The notes below the pieces were generated by a model. It worked only from the letters and a program-made list of their open reading frames with translations. It made no database searches and was not told the origin of the DNA. Positions 1,975 through 62,215 of a DNA stretch of 64,000 nt are shown here, piece after piece. Each line of letters opens with the position of its first letter. Within the stretch, counting starts at the first letter, position 1. The position numbers and the translations under genes are program-made. The stretch is from Cristatella mucedo (Eukaryota > Bryozoa > Phylactolaemata > Cristatellidae), in NCBI GenBank assembly GCA_009760855.2, contig WPIO01000019.1:3793501-3857500 (forward strand), written 5' to 3'.

Positions 1975-2142
1975 ACCTCTTCACCCAGGAGGTAATGTGC
2001 TCGCTGTTCACAACCCAGATCGTGGGTTCGAGTACTGTAGTGGGCGATCCTCCATTGTCCACTGCAAGCGGCGGCGGTGACTGCCGCAAAGGCTCTTCTG
2101 CCGCTAGACAAATGAAGGTGCTAACTCAGCTAACCTTGTAGG
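1975..2142 (+). mobile_element. SINE-B copy
   Basis: This is a tRNA-derived short element. The RNA polymerase III B-box-like sequence GTGGGTTCGAGTACTG is followed by the family body (GGGCGATCC, a CCACTGCAAGCG-like block, GCCGCAAAGGCTCTTCTG) and ends near AACTCAGCTAAC. It matches copies at 2912 and 11459. The A-box side is diverged. Confidence 0.65.
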
Positions 2143-2804
2143 TAAAATTCATCGCCGATGCTTTAATCGATTACTGCACTTTAGATAGATATTGAATGTT
2201 AGTTAATTTATCGTCCTTATTGAACCTGGAGCTGATAGCATTGCAATGAACATTAGAGCCTCTCCGTCTGTAACTCCACAAAGACCAAGTGGGTGTTACG
2301 TAGGAGAGTTTTATGTAGCGCCCTCAAAGCCTAAGCGACTTTCGGTACTCATGCGGTAGCCAACAGACTTCATCTCAAGCAAAAAAATAGAAAGTGACAG
2401 GCATAGTTGAGTCAGTAGGGCATTCGAAGAAGTGAGTAGTATGGAAGTAGCAGCTCAAGACGGCAGGAAAGAATATGCTGTAGGCGGCACCAGAAGAATA
2501 GATGTCGCTGGCTGCGTCAGTAGAGAGGAAGTTAGCTCCGCCGGCTAGGACCTGCAGAGTTCCACAGTCTAGGACATGCAGAGCAAAAGCTTCTGTCGCC
2601 AACGGTCTTTAAGCGGAGGAATGGAACAGCTAATGCATTGTCTACACAGGACCTGAGGGCGCGAAGAGGCTGAAACTGATGCAGCAGTTCAGCTAGGTAC
2701 GAAGGAGCCGTGGCGGGCCTTTCGGGTCAGCGTAAGCGAACTTCGCTCTGTATCCATTCATCAACCGGCAGCCATCCCAACCATTCTAGTTGACCAACCG
2801 GGAG

Positions 2805-2909
2805 CAGTGGCGTACCGAAGAGGGCAGCTGAGGCATATGTCATCGGGTGCTGGATCTCGGGGGGGGGGGAGGGTTGGGGTGCTGAAACAGTATCTTAGGA
2901 ACGCCACTG
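2805..2909. mobile_element. 105-bp hAT-like miniature element
   Basis: The ends are CAGTGGCGTACC and GGAACGCCACTG, an 11 of 12 terminal inverted repeat of the kind common in hAT transposons. The flanking octamers ACCGGGAG and ATCGTGAG agree at 6 of 8 positions, weak support for an 8-bp target duplication, and a SINE-B starts inside the right one. A G-run and a G-rich stretch lie in the interior. It has no coding capacity. Confidence 0.5.
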
Positions 2910-2911
2910 AT

Positions 2912-3095
2912 CGTGAGCCGTGGTGGAACACTTAGTAAGGTGGCTGCTGTTCCCGACCTCGGTTCCGAGGTCGTGGGCTCGAATCCTGTGATGGGCGATC
3001 CTTTATTACCGTTGCTTGCAAGCATTAGTGATAGCCGTAAAGGCTTTTCTGTCGCTGTGCTAGAGAGACAGTTAAATCAGCTAGTATTTAGCAGA
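2912..3095 (+). mobile_element. SINE-B copy, best preserved
   Basis: It begins GTGAGCCGTGGTGG and carries an A-box-like segment, then the B-box GTGGGCTCGAATCC. The family body follows, with GGGCGATCCTTTATT and GCCGTAAAGGC, and the end is near AAATCAGCTAG. It interrupts LINE-A directly beside the 105-bp hAT-like element. The tRNA-like head identifies it as a polymerase III SINE. Confidence 0.75.
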
Positions 3096-3639
3096 AGGGA
3101 CAAACGGCTGATCCTCTGAGATTTTTAAGTAGCCTTGCTGCCATATTCATCACCAGCTGCAGTTGCCTAGTGGCCTTTTCAGTAGCCAAAAAGTGGCCCA
3201 GCAAAAACGGAATTTAAATAATCCAGCCTAGACAGAACTAGTGAGTTAGCTAAATCTTTTGCCACCCAACGTTCTAGACAGCTCCGATTCTTAGATCGGG
3301 ATCGGACGTGATGGCTAGCTGTGGAGGCAGTCTTCTTAATGAAACTTTCAAAGTTTATGTGCAGTTTTCAAAGACAACACCTGAATTCCCAGCGAGGTGA
3401 GGGTCGGGCAACAACATCACTTATTATAAGAGCAAAGTCTCCTTGTCCAGCCGCACGCTTGGTTTGTCCTATGAGTGGGGGGTTCGGTTTTATCGTCGTT
3501 TAGTTCGCTGCAGTATATTCCGGCGGTTTACACGAGTCCCACAGCTATCGTCAGGACAGAAACGTTTTCGTCCCGATCGCGGCCCCTCATCGGATTTCCG
3601 TTGAAAATGTCGAGGCCTAGACGACGGAGACCCCCCCCC

Positions 3640-3802
3640 CCGGGCCTTAACCCAGGGGTAAGATACTCGCACTTAGTGAGCTAGGTCGTGGGTTCGACTC
3701 CAGCAGCAGCCAATTCGTCATTGCCGTTCGCAAGTAGGCTGTAGTAGCTGCCAAGGCTCGCTTGCGGAAATTCAAACGAGGCCCTTGAATCAGCCGGCCT
3801 TT
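3640..3802 (+). mobile_element. SINE-B copy
   Basis: The B-box GTGGGTTCGACTCC is followed by diverged SINE-B body (CCGTTCGCAAG, TGCCAAGGCTCG) and an end resembling AATCAGC before a T-run. A C-run of about 10 lies just upstream, near 3630. Confidence 0.55.
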
Positions 3803-4002
3803 TTTGCGTCAGGACGCAAGTGGCTTGAGCAACTACGCAGGAGATATACAAGCGAGCATAGCGGTACCAGCAAGAGTAGTGGCCATCCACACTGCTCATC
3901 TCCTCAGCGGTTCGCCTAACTTTGGCCACCCACATTTTTTGGGCGAGACAAGCAAGCAAAATAGGTGATGTAAGGGGAGTGTCGGTAGAGCTCAGGATAA
4001 GT

Positions 4003-4140
4003 TTATAATAATAATAATAATGCACTTGATAAAGCGCCCTCAGAGAACTTAATCTCTCTCTAGGCGCTTTACATTTGCTGCAAAGGAAAATGCAATTGAA
4101 TGGTGAGTAAAATCATGCTTGATAAACAAACAAAATGAAT
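4003..4140 (-). mobile_element. LINE-B 3' tail
   Basis: An AAT microsatellite and the LINE-B stem-loop tail in minus orientation are followed by about 60 bp of 3' untranslated sequence, with AATTGAATGGTGAG and ATCATGCTTGATAAAC. It is nearly identical over this part to copies at 14505 and 42757, which suggests fairly recent activity. Confidence 0.85.
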
Positions 4141-5070
4141 AACTCACAAGCGTGTAGCTAGTTACAAGGTAAGACTTTCCTTAAGATCATCTAAGATCCT
4201 TCCAAGGTCGTTTGCCTTTGCAGCCTACACTAGAAACGAACATTATTGCGACTCAAAATTGCAATCCCTTCCCTGCCAATACTTGTGTCAGGTTGAACTA
4301 TGGGAGATGTTCGGAAGCTAGCTCATCTAAGCCGAGAAAGTTCGGGCAGATCTTGACCACCGGCCTGCACACATGACAGAAGACAGGGGCTTAGGGGAAC
4401 TCAGCATGAGCCAGTAGACATCCGCGATCGGACCAAATGACGGGCGTGACGCCTACATGAGACCGTACAGCAGACTTGTACATTGGCTCGTTAACAGTGG
4501 CTGCTTTAACTGCTTATCGTTAGTCAAGAAAGTGTTTGTACTACATATATCGGCGTTGTGTCTGCTTCATTTTTGCCACAGAAATAGCAGACAGATAATC
4601 CAGTAGTGGCAGGGGCCTACCCCCACCCCGCGAAGACAGCAGCAGCGCCCGGAAAGCACTCTGTGGTTGTGCCGCACACTAGCAAGATGGCGGCGGCAGG
4701 AAGGTGTATTCTGTAACTAACGTGCTGTAGCAGGTCCTGAGCTGGAGACCTTTGCCACAAGCGCAACGAGTGTACACAATGGCGCTGGTCTCTGCAGATG
4801 CATGGCCGATACTTGTGAAGCTAGTGCCTTGCAGCACGGCTGACCGGTCGTAAATGGCGAACCCGTAAACACCGGTATGGCGACTGCAGCACAGTACGAC
4901 AGCATTCAAAAGCATCCATAGCCTAGCATGACAAGTCTTCGTCCTTGCATAGATCCTTGCGTTATCTCGAAGAAGCCCAAGAGGTTATGCGTGTACCGCA
5001 CCAGCTACAGTGCGTGCAGCTCACTAGCTCGAAGCTCAGCAAGTAAAGCCAAGTAATGACGGTCATTACA
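4141..5070. other. Stretch without recognisable feature
   Basis: I see no exon chain or repeat family. The overlapping minus-strand frames at 4679-4915 are in two registers and lack known motifs. Confidence 0.4.
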
Positions 5071-5071
5071 G

Positions 5072-6686
5072 ATGTAATGTAATGTAATGTATCTCCGTCA
5101 GTAACTCCATGAAGTCATAAAGACCATGTGGGTGTTACGCAGGAGAGTTTTGTATAGCGCACTCACAGCCTAAGCGGCTTTCGGTACGCATTCGGTAGCC
5201 AACAGACTTCGTCTCACGCAACAAAGAGAAAGTGGGAGGCATAGCAGAGTCAGGAGAGCAGTTGAGGTAGTGAGTAGCATAGAAGTAGCAGTTCAGGACC
5301 GCTGAAAAAGATGTGCCACAGTCGGCAGTTGGAGAGTAGATGTCGTTGCGTAAGAATTGTGGAAGCGAGTTCCACAGTCTAGGACCTGCAGAGCTAAAGC
5401 TTCTGTCGCCAACTGTCTTTAAGCGGAGGAATGGGACAGCTAATTTATTGTCCACACAGGACCTGAGGGCGCGAACAGGCTGAAGCTTATGCAGCAGTTC
5501 AGCTAGGTATGAAGGAGCCAAGCCGTGGCGGGCCTTGTGGGTCAGCATAAGAACTTTGCTCTGTATCCTTCGCTCAACCGGCAACCATCCCAGCTCTTCC
5601 AGCAAAGGTGACACGTGCTCAAACCGCTGGGACTTGAAGACCAGCCTTGCAGCCATATTCATAGTCCGCTGTAGTGGCATAATGGCTTTCTTTGGTAGCC
5701 CAGCCAAAAGGGAATTACAATAATCAAGCCGAGACAGAACTAAAGAGCTAGTTAAACTTTTTACAAGCCACTGTGGGAGACAGCTTCTAATCTTGGATAG
5801 GGATCGGATGTGATGGCTAGCTGTAGAGGCAGTCTTCTGAAGGAAGCTTTTGAAATCGAGGCAGCTGTCGAACACGACACCTAGATTACGAGCACGTGGT
5901 GAAGGTCGCACAATAGCATCACCTATTAGAACAGCAAAGCCTTTTAGTCCAGCCACACGCTTAGGGTGTCCTATGAGAAGCAGTTCGGTTTTATCGTCAT
6001 TTAATTTCAGGAAGTTTTCCGTCATCCAGGATCGAATATCAGCAAGGCAAGCATTCAGTTTCTCAGTTGCTGCAGCAGATTCCGACGGTTTAAATGACAA
6101 ATACAACTGAGTATCGTCAGCATAGAAGTGATATCCTATTCCATGGGCCTTAATCACTTTTCCCAGAGGTTGCGTATAAATGGAGAACAGCAAGGGACCA
6201 AGTACAGACCCTTGAGGGACTCCACAGGTGACCCTTCTCATGTCTGAGACCTGACCCCCACACGACACGGAATGAACACGATCAGACAAGTATGATTTAA
6301 ACCACGCTAGTGCTTCGTCTGCCAGACCGATCGTTGTTCTCAGTCGTTCAAGCAGAACTTCGTGATCAATGGTGTCGAAGGCAGCAGACAGATCTAGCAG
6401 AGCTAAGGCAGTGACATTCCCGTCGTCGTTGCCACGTAGAATGTCATTTTTAACACGGAGGAGAGCAGTTTCAGTAGAGTGCTGCCTCTTGAACCCTGAT
6501 TGAAATGTTTCTGACATTCCATTATTTTCAATATGTTCAACAAGCTGCTTAGCAACAATTTTTTCAAGAATCTTTGATAAGAATGGAAGAAGGGAAACTG
6601 GACGATAGTTTGCTAGGACCTCTGTGTCTAATCCAGGCTTTTTAAGAATAGGTCTAACGATTGCCGATGCCCAGTTAAATTCGGTC
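5072..6686 (-). mobile_element. LINE-A element, 5'-truncated with intact RT frame
   Basis: This is the best LINE-A copy. Its 3' end, at the low coordinates, carries a pentameric ATGTA tail. A 3' untranslated region and a long reverse-transcriptase frame follow, and the copy stops at about 6686, where the frame meets TAG within unrelated DNA. The frame can be read upstream of its first methionine to about 6683, covering the RT N-terminal region with ILKKPG and NYRPVSLLP. The endonuclease and 5' region are missing. Such 5' truncation is the normal outcome of target-primed reverse transcription. Confidence 0.9.
5135..6517 (-). CDS. Non-LTR retrotransposon reverse transcriptase, C-terminal part
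   Basis: This 460-codon frame belongs to LINE-A. RT motifs run in order: LLDLSAAFDTID at residues 40-51 (catalytic Asp), GVPQGSVLGPLL at 99-110, and YADDTQLYLS at 132-141 with the catalytic Asp pair. The thumb region and the C-terminal segment (SFSSAGPRLWNSLP) typical of L2/CR1-like elements follow. The first Met is not the true start, because the same frame continues upstream to about 6683. The product would copy LINE RNA into DNA at a nicked target. It has no endonuclease and no 5' promoter, so this copy is unlikely to move by itself. The lack of stops over 460 codons suggests a young insertion. Clade assignment is from motif style only. Confidence 0.88.
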   Translation of the reverse strand: MSETFQSGFKRQHSTETALLRVKNDILRGNDDGNVTALALLDLSAAFDTIDHEVLLERLRTTIGLADEALAWFKSYLSDRVHSVSCGGQVSDMRRVTCGVPQGSVLGPLLFSIYTQPLGKVIKAHGIGYHFYADDTQLYLSFKPSESAAATEKLNACLADIRSWMTENFLKLNDDKTELLLIGHPKRVAGLKGFAVLIGDAIVRPSPRARNLGVVFDSCLDFKSFLQKTASTASHHIRSLSKIRSCLPQWLVKSLTSSLVLSRLDYCNSLLAGLPKKAIMPLQRTMNMAARLVFKSQRFEHVSPLLEELGWLPVERRIQSKVLMLTHKARHGLAPSYLAELLHKLQPVRALRSCVDNKLAVPFLRLKTVGDRSFSSAGPRLWNSLPQFLRNDIYSPTADCGTSFSAVLNCYFYATHYLNCSPDSAMPPTFSLLRETKSVGYRMRTESRLGCECAIQNSPA

Positions 6687-12418: not shown

Positions 12419-13500
12419 GATAGATTTGAAGTTTCGAAAGTAAGGTTCAACTGGTCTTCAACAATTCGTTAGAGTGTCTTTGATAGGATAGATGTCTTTG
12501 ATAGCTGGATGGAGACTGGGAGGAAGTTGCTCAAGTTCTCTTGGTCTAATGTGGCTTTTTTGAATAGTGGCCTGACTATAGCCTTTTTGAAAGGTGCTGG
12601 GAATGACCTGAAGCTAATGACATATTTATGATGTTAGTTATGCATGGAAGCAGCAGATCTATGCATCTTAGAAGCAGAACAGTGGCAATAGGTCCAAAGG
12701 ACGAGTTTTCTTCTTTGGTGGTTGGGATATGAACTTCAGGACGAGGTTACAAGTGACCACGTTGAATGTAGACATTGAGATGCTGCACGAAATTAAGGGA
12801 CATCATTCCCGGAGAGATGCTGCCATCTTAGGGATGGACTCCCTGATCTTGTCTATCTTGTTGACAAGGAAGCTAGAGAAGCGATCAGCTTGATCATCGC
12901 AGGGATCATTAGGTAAGTAGCTAACCTGGGAGCGGTTGTGGAGATGGTTGTTCGTCGATATCAGCATTTTTGGATTGTGCACCTGTGATTCAACAATGCT
13001 TTTATAGAAGCTAGACTTGGCCTTTGCTAAGATCGATTGGTATGATCTGCTTTTGAACTCAAGCCTACTTTTTGTAAATTTTGATAGCTTCCATGGAGCT
13101 TGAAGTCGAGCAAATTCATTTATCAGTCCATTTTCTGCTTTTTAAGGGCAGATTATAAAAAAGTAGAGCAAATTGATCGCAGTTTCTCTGTCTTCATACT
13201 AAAATACGACGGGTTCTTAATTTCACTTAATCTCTTTTGAATCATTATATTTCTTTAGCAATCAGTATTTTTAGGCGCTTCTCATTCGTTCAGGTTATTT
13301 AATTGGTGAATTATATCTATGCAATTAACGTATAATTCGGTAAGGGCAATCATATTACGACCTCCTTCTGAATCAATGACATGCACAGCATGCTGATAAT
13401 AAAGCTGCATTTACATGATCTAATCTTTTTATTCCCATCTGTGGAAGTAAGATTATTGCAGCAATTTGACTCAAATAAGATAATCAAATAGCATCATGAT

Positions 13501-13650: not shown

Positions 13651-14219
13651 GAGGAATTTGAGCAATGGAACAATTGGGATCGTATAAATTTGTCTTTACA
13701 CGAGTTATGAAAATATCTTTAATAAGAAAGATCATCATGAATAAACTGTATTAATCTACTTTTGGTGCACACACAAACCTGTTTAGGAATATTCCATTGA
13801 GCACAATTATGTGAGCTCACTTGACATTGGATAAGGCCCGTTCGTTATATTTAGCTCCCCTGAATGAATGTTAGGGTCACGGTATAGGCACGCCCTTGAT
13901 GACATGCTTAATGAGTTGGCACCTCGGACTAAGCGAAGTGTGCACCCTCGCCCAGATGTCTATGGTTTATCGCAGACATTAAAATAGCTAGATCTACTAC
14001 GCCGAATCTTGAGAAAGCATACAGAAGGTCAGGACTAACTGTCAGGCATACGAAGACTCCGGTAGATCACACCAATCGATGCTAGCAAAGGCCATGTCTA
14101 GCTTCTGTAAAGATATTATTGAATCACAGGTACACAATCCAAAAATGTCTACCATCAACCATCTCCTTAACCGCTCACAGGTTAGCTCTTTACCTAATGA
14201 TCCTTGTGAGGATCTAACC

Positions 14220-14405
14220 GAGCGGTTCTCAACCTGTGGGTCGCGATCCCTTTGGGGGTCAAACGACCCTTTCACAGGGGTCCCCCAAGACCATCGGAAA
14301 ACACGCATTTTCACATTTTGCACACAATAATTTTATGTTTGGGGTCACCACAACATTAGAAATTGTATTAAAGGGTCGCGGCATTCGGAAGGTTGAGAAC
14401 CACTG
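14220..14405. mobile_element. SPIN-like hAT miniature transposon
   Basis: This 186-bp element is flanked by a perfect 8-bp target duplication, ATCTAACC, at 14212-14219 and 14406-14413. Its ends are GAGCGGTTCTCAACC and GGTTGAGAACCACTG. Subterminal blocks include TGGGTCGCGA, GGGGGTCAAACGACCCTTTC, AAGACCATCGGAAAACAC, GGGTCACCACAACATTAG and TTAAAGGGTCGCGGCATT. These match, from memory, the hAT family SPIN (Space Invaders), known for horizontal transfer between distant animals. It has no transposase and sits inside an older, decayed LINE-B. Confidence 0.9.
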
Positions 14406-14504
14406 ATCTAACCGATCGCTTCTCTAGCTTCTTTGTCAAGAAGATTGACAAGATCCTTCATTCGTTAGCTCCAGCCAATCTGAACTACTCCTCCAGGCTA
14501 GGCA

Positions 14505-14650
14505 TAATAATAATAATGCACTGATAAAGCGCCCTCAGAGAACTTAATCTCTCTCTAGTCGCTTTACATTTGCTGAAAGGGAAGTGCAATTGAATTGAGA
14601 GTAAAATCATGCTTGATAAACAAACAAAATGAATAACATGGTTAGGGGTG
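14505..14650 (-). mobile_element. LINE-B 3' tail nested in a LINE-B copy
   Basis: An AATAATAATAAT microsatellite and the inverted LINE-B tail plus early 3' untranslated region sit between CCAGGCTAGGCAT and GCCGCCCGCTTTCC, which are adjacent in uninterrupted LINE-B copies. It is a 5'-truncated later insertion. Confidence 0.8.
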
Positions 14651-16876: not shown

Positions 16877-40632
<23,756 letters not shown>

Positions 40633-60003: not shown

Positions 60004-60136
60004 CATTTATATAGTGCCCCAAGAGAACTTAATCTCTATTCAGGCGCTTCACATATGCCTCGGGGCTCGAGCCCACGACCTCAGTCAGACCTTGGTCGGG
60101 GCGAGCACCTTAACCGCTAGACCAGACCAGCTCGGC
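60001..60136 (-). mobile_element. SINE-A copy
   Basis: Tail ATTCATTTATATAGTGCCCC, then GGGCTCGAGCCCACGACC, GTCGGGGCGAGCACCTTAAC, CGCTAGACCAGACCAGCTC. Intact head. Confidence 0.9.
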
Positions 60137-60909: not shown

Positions 60910-62215
60910 AGACTACTTCTTAGATTTCTTCGCCTGTCTTGTAAAGCTGTTTGGGAGCATCTCTGGTGGGTGTCCAGCAATAGTCAGCCATCATTGTAGT
61001 GGACCATTTTTCCTGGTGTCTTTGTTCTATTGCTGCCATATCTTTATGAAAACGTTCGCCACGTTCATCACTAACTATTCCACAGTTGTCAGGGAGGAAA
61101 TCCAAATAGGAATGAAGAAAGTTGATCTTTAGAGACACATGGCAGCCAAGTTTCTGATACTGCATCAGCATGCCCTCTACTAGTTCCTCGTAGTTTTCTG
61201 ATCTAAAATTCACGAGAAAGTTTGTAGAGACACTTGGTGAAAAGGAATTCCATGGTTGTTTCGCAAGCACCCTACAGCAAGTTGTTGAGCCGGTCATCTT
61301 AGGAGAGCTCTCTAATCTGAGGACCCACAAAACTCCCCTCTTTAATCATTGCTTCACTGAGTCGAGGGAATTTTTCATGCAGTTATCGGAAAGCTGGCGA
61401 AGTCCGGTCCACGGCTTCACGAAGTTCTTCATCAAACCTAGTTTGATGAGAAGGGTGGTAGCAGAATTTTGCGAGCATCGACCAGAGCTGGGTGTTGGAT
61501 ATTCTTCTCTCCGACTGCTACACTTTGTTTGTCCATTCCTTCCGCAATTAGTGTCATTCCCTTACTCGGCTATCACATCCACTAAGAATCACATGTATTT
61601 TGCATATCTCTGCTGCAGTCCCATAAAAAGGGTAACTACCTTCAAATCAGCACAGAGGTGCCAGCTGTACTAGTTATACTCAATAGAATTCAGTAGCTTC
61701 ATTAGGTTATCCTATGTAACTTTCATGTGGACAGCATACGCTACTAGGATAGATGAAGACGATTTCCATTGTGCATAAGCACAGCCTTGAGAATCAGGTT
61801 TCGAATAGTCTGCAAATAGTCTCTATTCTTGTGGGTCGTGAAAGATTTTTAAGGCTTTCATGAGGCCCTCAATGTCGGAACAGAATGCCAGGTTGCTTTC
61901 CTTTCTGAAGTGCCGAGCTGGTTTGGTCTAGCGGTTAAGGTGCTCGCCCCGACCAAGGTCTGACTGAGGTCGTGGGCTCGAGCCCCGAGGCACATGTGAA
62001 GCGCCTGAATAGAGATTAAGTTCTCTTGGGTGCTATATAAATGAATTATATTATTATATTAAGAAAGGCTCTAAGTGCTCGTGGAGCTTTTGATATAAAG
62101 TAATTGTGATATCCTCTTCAAGAAGACTCCGTTGCTGGAGTCTAGATCCCAGCAACTCTGCCTTACTCTTGCATAAGTCCAAATCACGAACCAGGTCATT
62201 TATTTCCTCGTGTTA
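60910..62215 (-). pseudogene. Decayed copy of a multicopy animal protein family of unknown function
   Basis: Read on the minus strand from about 62215, pieces in order are NDLVRDLDLCKSKAELLGSR, a SINE-A insertion, LAFCSDIEGLMKALKIFHDP, AVHMKVT, WHLCADLKVVTLFMGLQQRY, ELREAVDRTSPAFR, KFPRLSEAMIKE and VLRLESSPK, then an open 136-codon part with KLGCHVSLKINFLHSYLDFL, DERGERFHKDM and MMADYCWTPTRD (60920-61330). I recognise these motifs from memory as a family present in many copies in arthropod, cnidarian and other genomes. It behaves like a mobile element, but I do not know its function or class. Several in-frame stops and frameshifts show this copy is dead. Confidence 0.65.
61913..62060 (+). mobile_element. 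SINE-A copy inside the pseudogene
   Basis: CCGAGCTGGTTTGGTCTAGC, GGTTAAGGTGC, B-box GTGGGCTCGAGCCCC, tail GAAGCGCCTGAATAGAGATT and GGGTGCTATATAAATGAATT. One of the most intact copies. It splits the minus-strand pseudogene. Confidence 0.92.

Follow-up and report, generated by a model that had tools for sequence, protein, structure and literature searches.

The window, i.e. the whole 64-kb stretch of DNA that was analyzed, contains a 186-bp element (positions 14220–14405) lying inside a LINE. The terminal repeats of the element, compared within the window, match at 14 of 16 positions, and the sequence ATCTAACC flanks both ends with 8/8 identity (positions 14212–14219 and 14406–14413). The features of the locus are listed in Table 1. 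The element is non-coding and carries no gene, and most likely it has no function for the host. No further copy of it was found within the 64-kb window.

Table 1. Features of the element, its insertion site and the interrupted LINE (positions are those of the window).
Feature	Position	Strand	Basis
Interrupted LINE, left part	14064–14211	+	extent of paralogue alignment
Target-site duplication, left copy, ATCTAACC	14212–14219	.	identical to 14406–14413
SPIN-type miniature element, short form, 186 bp (consensus 187 bp)	14220–14405	+	ends, genome copies, consensus
Left terminal repeat	14220–14235	+	14/16 match to right repeat
Right terminal repeat, CAGTGGTTCTCAACCT	14390–14405	-	sequence read at element end
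Target-site duplication, right copy, ATCTAACC	14406–14413	.	identity to left copy
Interrupted LINE, right part	14414–14455	+	extent of paralogue alignment
Uninterrupted LINE paralogue (paralogous empty site)	12845–13048	-	84% over 204 columns across insertion point

When the two flanks are joined with one copy of the duplication kept, they give an unbroken alignment (84% over 204 columns) to the LINE copy at positions 13048–12845; with the element left in place, the match to this LINE is split in two. The paralogue that represents the empty site lies about 1 kb from the element. An earlier note on this DNA had described a 186-bp element with SPIN-type ends and a perfect 8-bp duplication, and this description is confirmed by the terminal repeats (14/16), the duplication (8/8), the paralogous empty site and the copies found elsewhere in the genome. 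The same note had the element well preserved within a decayed LINE. The window copy diverges by 6.5% from a consensus of 40 copies and the interrupted LINE by ~16% from its paralogue; the contrast in age is smaller than was implied, because the ~16% is a pairwise figure. The window copy begins with G, whereas C is the first base in 37 of 40 aligned copies; 35 of the 40 start with CAG.

Other repeats are present in the window. A long open reading frame on the minus strand (positions 5138–6685) displays a reverse transcriptase domain (RVT_1, E-value = 6.1e-35) and is probably an L2/CR1-type LINE. Repeats with a common tail like GCCCTCAGAGAACTTAATCTCT are abundant, e.g. at positions 4003–4122, 14498–14617, 26773–26910 and 60018–60136, and some of these have a tRNA-like head, as judged by eye. 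They are probably host SINEs and LINE tails.

The host assembly consists of 572 Mb in 688 contigs. A search with the element gave 2224 first-look candidates; the 40 places that were scored all match the element, and the 39 besides the window copy are 89–92% identical to it over nearly the full length. The copies are spread over many contigs. An 18-mer from an inner block of the element occurs exactly 289 times in the genome, and the reversed word used as a control does not occur (0). These matches exceed chance. Since the 18-mer is intact in 13 of the 39 ranked copies fetched, the 289 exact sites suggest a genome total of very roughly 900 copies, a figure that comes from a biased sample. A sequence without other copies in its genome, which was a concern of the earlier note, is thus not what is found: there are hundreds of copies (40/40 scored places and 289 exact 18-mers).

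The consensus of the 40 best-ranked copies, termed here the short form, is 187 bp. These copies are 3.2%–7.5% from the consensus (mean 5.4%), values that are biased low as only best-ranked copies are included. A second sample was drawn from sites of the 18-mer: 100 of the 289 counted were listed, and the first 42 of these, minus two already in the first sample, give 40 places. A single match spans the element in 28 of these, and the 28 short copies are 5.4%–13.5% from the consensus with a mean of 8.5%. At the other 12 places the copy is a long form, truncated or broken in some other way, and does not enter the mean; this sample is also biased low, as every copy in it has the 18-mer intact. Target-site duplications with at least 7/8 identity are present around 23 of 40 copies of the first sample and 18 of 28 of the second, compared with 47 of 6300 control pairs from the window (simple repeats included). 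A clear duplication is absent at the tested boundary in the remaining 17/40 and 10/28 copies.

Three of the 40 places in the second sample (L120, L134 and L141) share both ends with the short form but have a longer middle. A search with this middle yielded 79 candidates, and all 40 that were scored match. A long consensus was built from 15 copies, i.e. the three already in hand and 12 of the 40 fetched; it has 322 letters, and the long form is put at 321 bp because the first letter is assigned to the flank. Two of the 15 copies are more than 20% from the long consensus, perhaps an effect of extrapolation in placing their ends. The short and long consensuses are identical over the first 93 and the last 81 bp, and for this reason an internal deletion in the 321-bp form is the simplest and probable origin of the 187-bp form, a derivation read from the consensuses. 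High-copy non-autonomous derivatives are a feature of SPIN, and the short and long forms provide them here.

Short terminal inverted repeats and 8-bp target-site duplications define the hAT superfamily (PMC11008031). Both are present in the window element (14/16 and 8/8) and its genome copies. The 23 first-sample duplications with at least 7/8 identity have a T at position 4 in 20 cases and an A at position 5 in 22, and thus display the Buster-group consensus nnnTAnnn. This is the target duplication of TcBuster, and SPIN belongs to the Buster family (PMC3499496).

Inner blocks in common with vertebrate copies, a further SPIN feature, were detected by means of published mouse oligonucleotides. 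The mouse Ate1 primers R1 and R2 are reverse primers of one arm (PMC2767504 and PMC2837401, with the same primers in both). R1 was found through its 12-base end word; R2 was not chosen for likeness. R2 matches an inner block of the window element at 17 of 20 positions, in the same orientation as R1, and the consensus at 18 of 20. As controls, the best of 300 shuffles reaches 16 and the best of 299 other pieces of the window 14. A mouse Scd1 primer has 17 consecutive bases in common with the element, of which 15 were the search word (PMC9482360), and a mouse Drc1 primer matches the long form at 17/20, 16 of these being the search word, with shuffles at 15/20 or less in 300 (PMC8522639); these two oligonucleotides were found by searching with most of the matching letters. 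A Rosa26 guide, sg2540, found through its end word, shows 14/18 against 12 or less in shuffles (PMC11247941). Guide sg2541, both donor arms and the last piece from the same source (PMC11247941) are at or below the controls when compared with the element. The accessible text of the mouse papers does not describe these oligonucleotides as lying in SPIN. A rabbit GGTA1 primer was considered as a SPIN match and is attributed to chance (13/20, a single 12-mer in common).

SPIN (SPACE INVADERS) elements are non-autonomous elements of tetrapods, and mouse sequences of this type are known as URR1. The comparison along the whole length was made with an uncurated SPIN/URR1-type text, composed after three long copies had been read. 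This text agrees with the short consensus in 180 of 187 columns, with the window copy in 169 of 186, and with the long consensus in 295 of 304; 12 of the 15 copies behind the long consensus had been fetched and were as yet unread when the text was aligned. Against two single long copies, with somewhat different gap costs, it gives 265/292 and 255/290 columns. An uncurated text that fits the consensuses better than the single copies tried is strong support for SPIN, as distinct from a database test. The earlier note had allowed for a SPIN likeness confined to the terminal 15 bp; the mouse oligonucleotides match inner blocks and the uncurated text matches along the length. The combined evidence supports assignment of the element as a putative miniature, non-coding member of SPIN (hAT superfamily, Buster group), its near-identity to SPIN being measured on the uncurated text. 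No relatives were found in viral contigs (two patterns), in phages, in plasmids or in prokaryote genome contigs (one pattern), where animal DNA is not expected.

The family resembles tetrapod SPIN/URR1 in its terminal repeats, inner blocks and 8-bp duplications, as well as in the agreement with the uncurated text (295/304 for the long form, 180/187 for the short). The long form differs from this text by an extra block of ~17 bases and by the lack of a few bases of the text; in the short form, most of the middle is missing. Unlike tetrapod SPIN, the family has an invertebrate host. Lymnaea stagnalis is an invertebrate SPIN host as well. In the snail Biomphalaria glabrata, a hAT element of ~1,000 copies has significant identity to SPIN (PMC5440852), a copy number of similar order to the rough estimate given above, and SPIN is present in Rhodnius prolixus (PMC11614815). 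The likeness to these two, a SPIN-type hAT in an invertebrate, is one of description rather than of sequence. The target duplication nnnTAnnn is common to the family and to TcBuster (PMC3499496), which in contrast is a complete transposon encoding its own transposase. The element itself is of a known kind, and the host is a new record for it. Among the titles listed in the literature searches, which covered few subscription papers, none on SPIN in a further spiralian was seen.

An autonomous partner was sought in the host genome. Two transposase-family searches gave 138 and 46 matches, and SPIN ends were not found at the 30 + 30 loci examined from them; these loci extend ~1.5 kb on each side, which makes a weak test for decayed loci. 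A Buster-type protein used as a query gave 77 matches from the 74 of 1098 candidates that were scored. One group from this query was read to its ends at seven loci (ends for six) and in the flanks of one further match. The ends are CAGGGGTGTCCAAC or close variants, and the group is therefore another hAT family. Of the checks that the earlier note had proposed, those on copy number and divergence were carried through, with hundreds of copies found and divergence measured, and that on the transposase yielded no autonomous SPIN in a partial search of the host genome.

Two hAT groups from these searches were considered further. An abundant hAT-type transposase (L048–L077), of Ac type as judged by eye, has many copies with open frames and similar scores for the dimerisation domain. 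With frames of up to ~640 aa it was considered as a power source for the element and rejected, as none of the 30 loci read has SPIN ends. The group with ends near CAGGGGTGTCCAAC (L106, L108–L113) is a 2.7-kb hAT, 91%–97% alike, and its protein is presumably GTF2IRD2/Charlie8-like; it too was rejected as a power source, since no SPIN ends were found. BLAST comparison of the SPIN consensuses with these loci gave matches of 10–21 bases with E-values of at least 0.56.

Evidence on the host comes from 20,000 bases read out of the 21,008 bp of a mitochondrial contig (C688). The cox1 frame has 15 TGA and 11 AGA/AGG codons within the gene, and two each of AAA and AAG; AGR reads as serine. AGR codons inside cox1 are incompatible with the vertebrate code. 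The genes nad1, nad6, cob, nad4L, nad4 and nad5 follow each other in this order on one strand; cox3, atp6, cox1 and nad3 are on that strand too, and nad2 and cox2 are on the opposite strand. The gene names were given by eye from translations, with a family match for cox1 only. The nad1–nad5 run on one strand fits a lophotrochozoan (chiton-like) pattern and not that of vertebrates or arthropods. Searches of the host genome for molluscan haemocyanin (PF14830) and hemerythrin (PF01814) gave no match; exon splitting weakens both searches, and haemocyanin was not matched in the control genomes either. The host is not a vertebrate. The mitochondrial contig also shows three copies of a ~2-kb stretch, one of them inverted (L082 ~2035–4006; L083 ~991–2950 and ~3106–5066, as read from repeated translations); such an inverted copy could have led to inversions of blocks of genes.

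The explanation that best fits these observations, and which is held with high confidence, is that the element is a SPIN miniature that was horizontally transferred to an invertebrate lineage and passed through a burst followed by decay. A SPIN transposase made elsewhere would have bound the ends of the element, excised it and inserted it into a target cut with an 8-bp stagger. The family would have entered the invertebrate lineage by horizontal transfer, the 321-bp form would have given rise to the 187-bp form through internal deletion, and the copies would have multiplied in a past burst and decayed since. Non-coding DNA is not expected to be ~96%–97% alike after more than 500 million years of common descent. 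Horizontal transfer is inferred because such a likeness is not expected since the vertebrate/protostome split, where the mammalian side of the ~96%–97% is the uncurated family text. A series of such transfers has been dated to ~45 to 15 million years ago (PMC3621081).

Ends like GGTTCTCAACC recur in several hAT families, and a different invertebrate hAT of the Buster/Charlie kind, inherited vertically, might have only such end motifs in common with SPIN. The use of an uncurated text in place of a curated sequence leaves some room for this reading, which is nevertheless made unlikely by the inner-block matches of mouse oligonucleotides and by the agreement of that text with the long form over its length (295/304 columns). 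It is highly improbable that the family is still active in the host through a full-length SPIN that has yet to be seen: the 40 best-ranked copies average 5.4% from their consensus, with none below 3.2%, the short copies of the second sample are 5%–14% away (mean 8.5%, n = 28 of 40), and at the transposase loci examined the ends are of another kind or SPIN ends are lacking. Points in its favor are the long open frames of other hAT families in the genome and the small part of the Buster-type candidates that was scored (74/1098).

Contamination of the assembly or the window, with the element as a vertebrate copy, had been raised in the earlier note. SPIN is best known from tetrapods, which would suit this reading, as would the vertebrate sources given for Rhodnius SPIN copies (PMC11614815). 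The mitochondrial contig, its cox1 included, is non-vertebrate, copies are found on many contigs, and six of 79 copy loci carry the repeat tail that is abundant in the window; vertebrate contamination is therefore very unlikely. The window copy is in addition placed inside a LINE that recurs in the window.

Within the preferred explanation of a horizontally transferred SPIN miniature, a more specific proposal is that SPIN invaded a spiralian phylum for which it has no earlier report, and that a mammal-like long form, nearly unchanged, founded both the long and the shortened families. This is put forward tentatively and is somewhat doubtful. If true, a spiralian invasion adds another phylum to the SPIN wave. 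SPIN ranks with the most familiar examples of DNA that has moved between animals of very distant lineages. Its presence as a multi-copy family of two forms, in an invertebrate whose genome is well assembled, would lengthen the list of hosts, provide copies for dating the arrival, and bear on which animals carried SPIN.

Two other features of the window may be mentioned. Coiled-coil-like exon pieces are present on the plus strand between positions 20472 and 37724, with frames at 20472–20771, 26147–26572, 31868–32383 and 36990–37724. The four pieces gave no Pfam match above the cut-offs; they presumably resemble shootin-1. A 141-aa open reading frame on the minus strand (positions 60923–61345), for which Pfam gave no match, is presumably a piece of a protein that is repeated across many invertebrate genomes.
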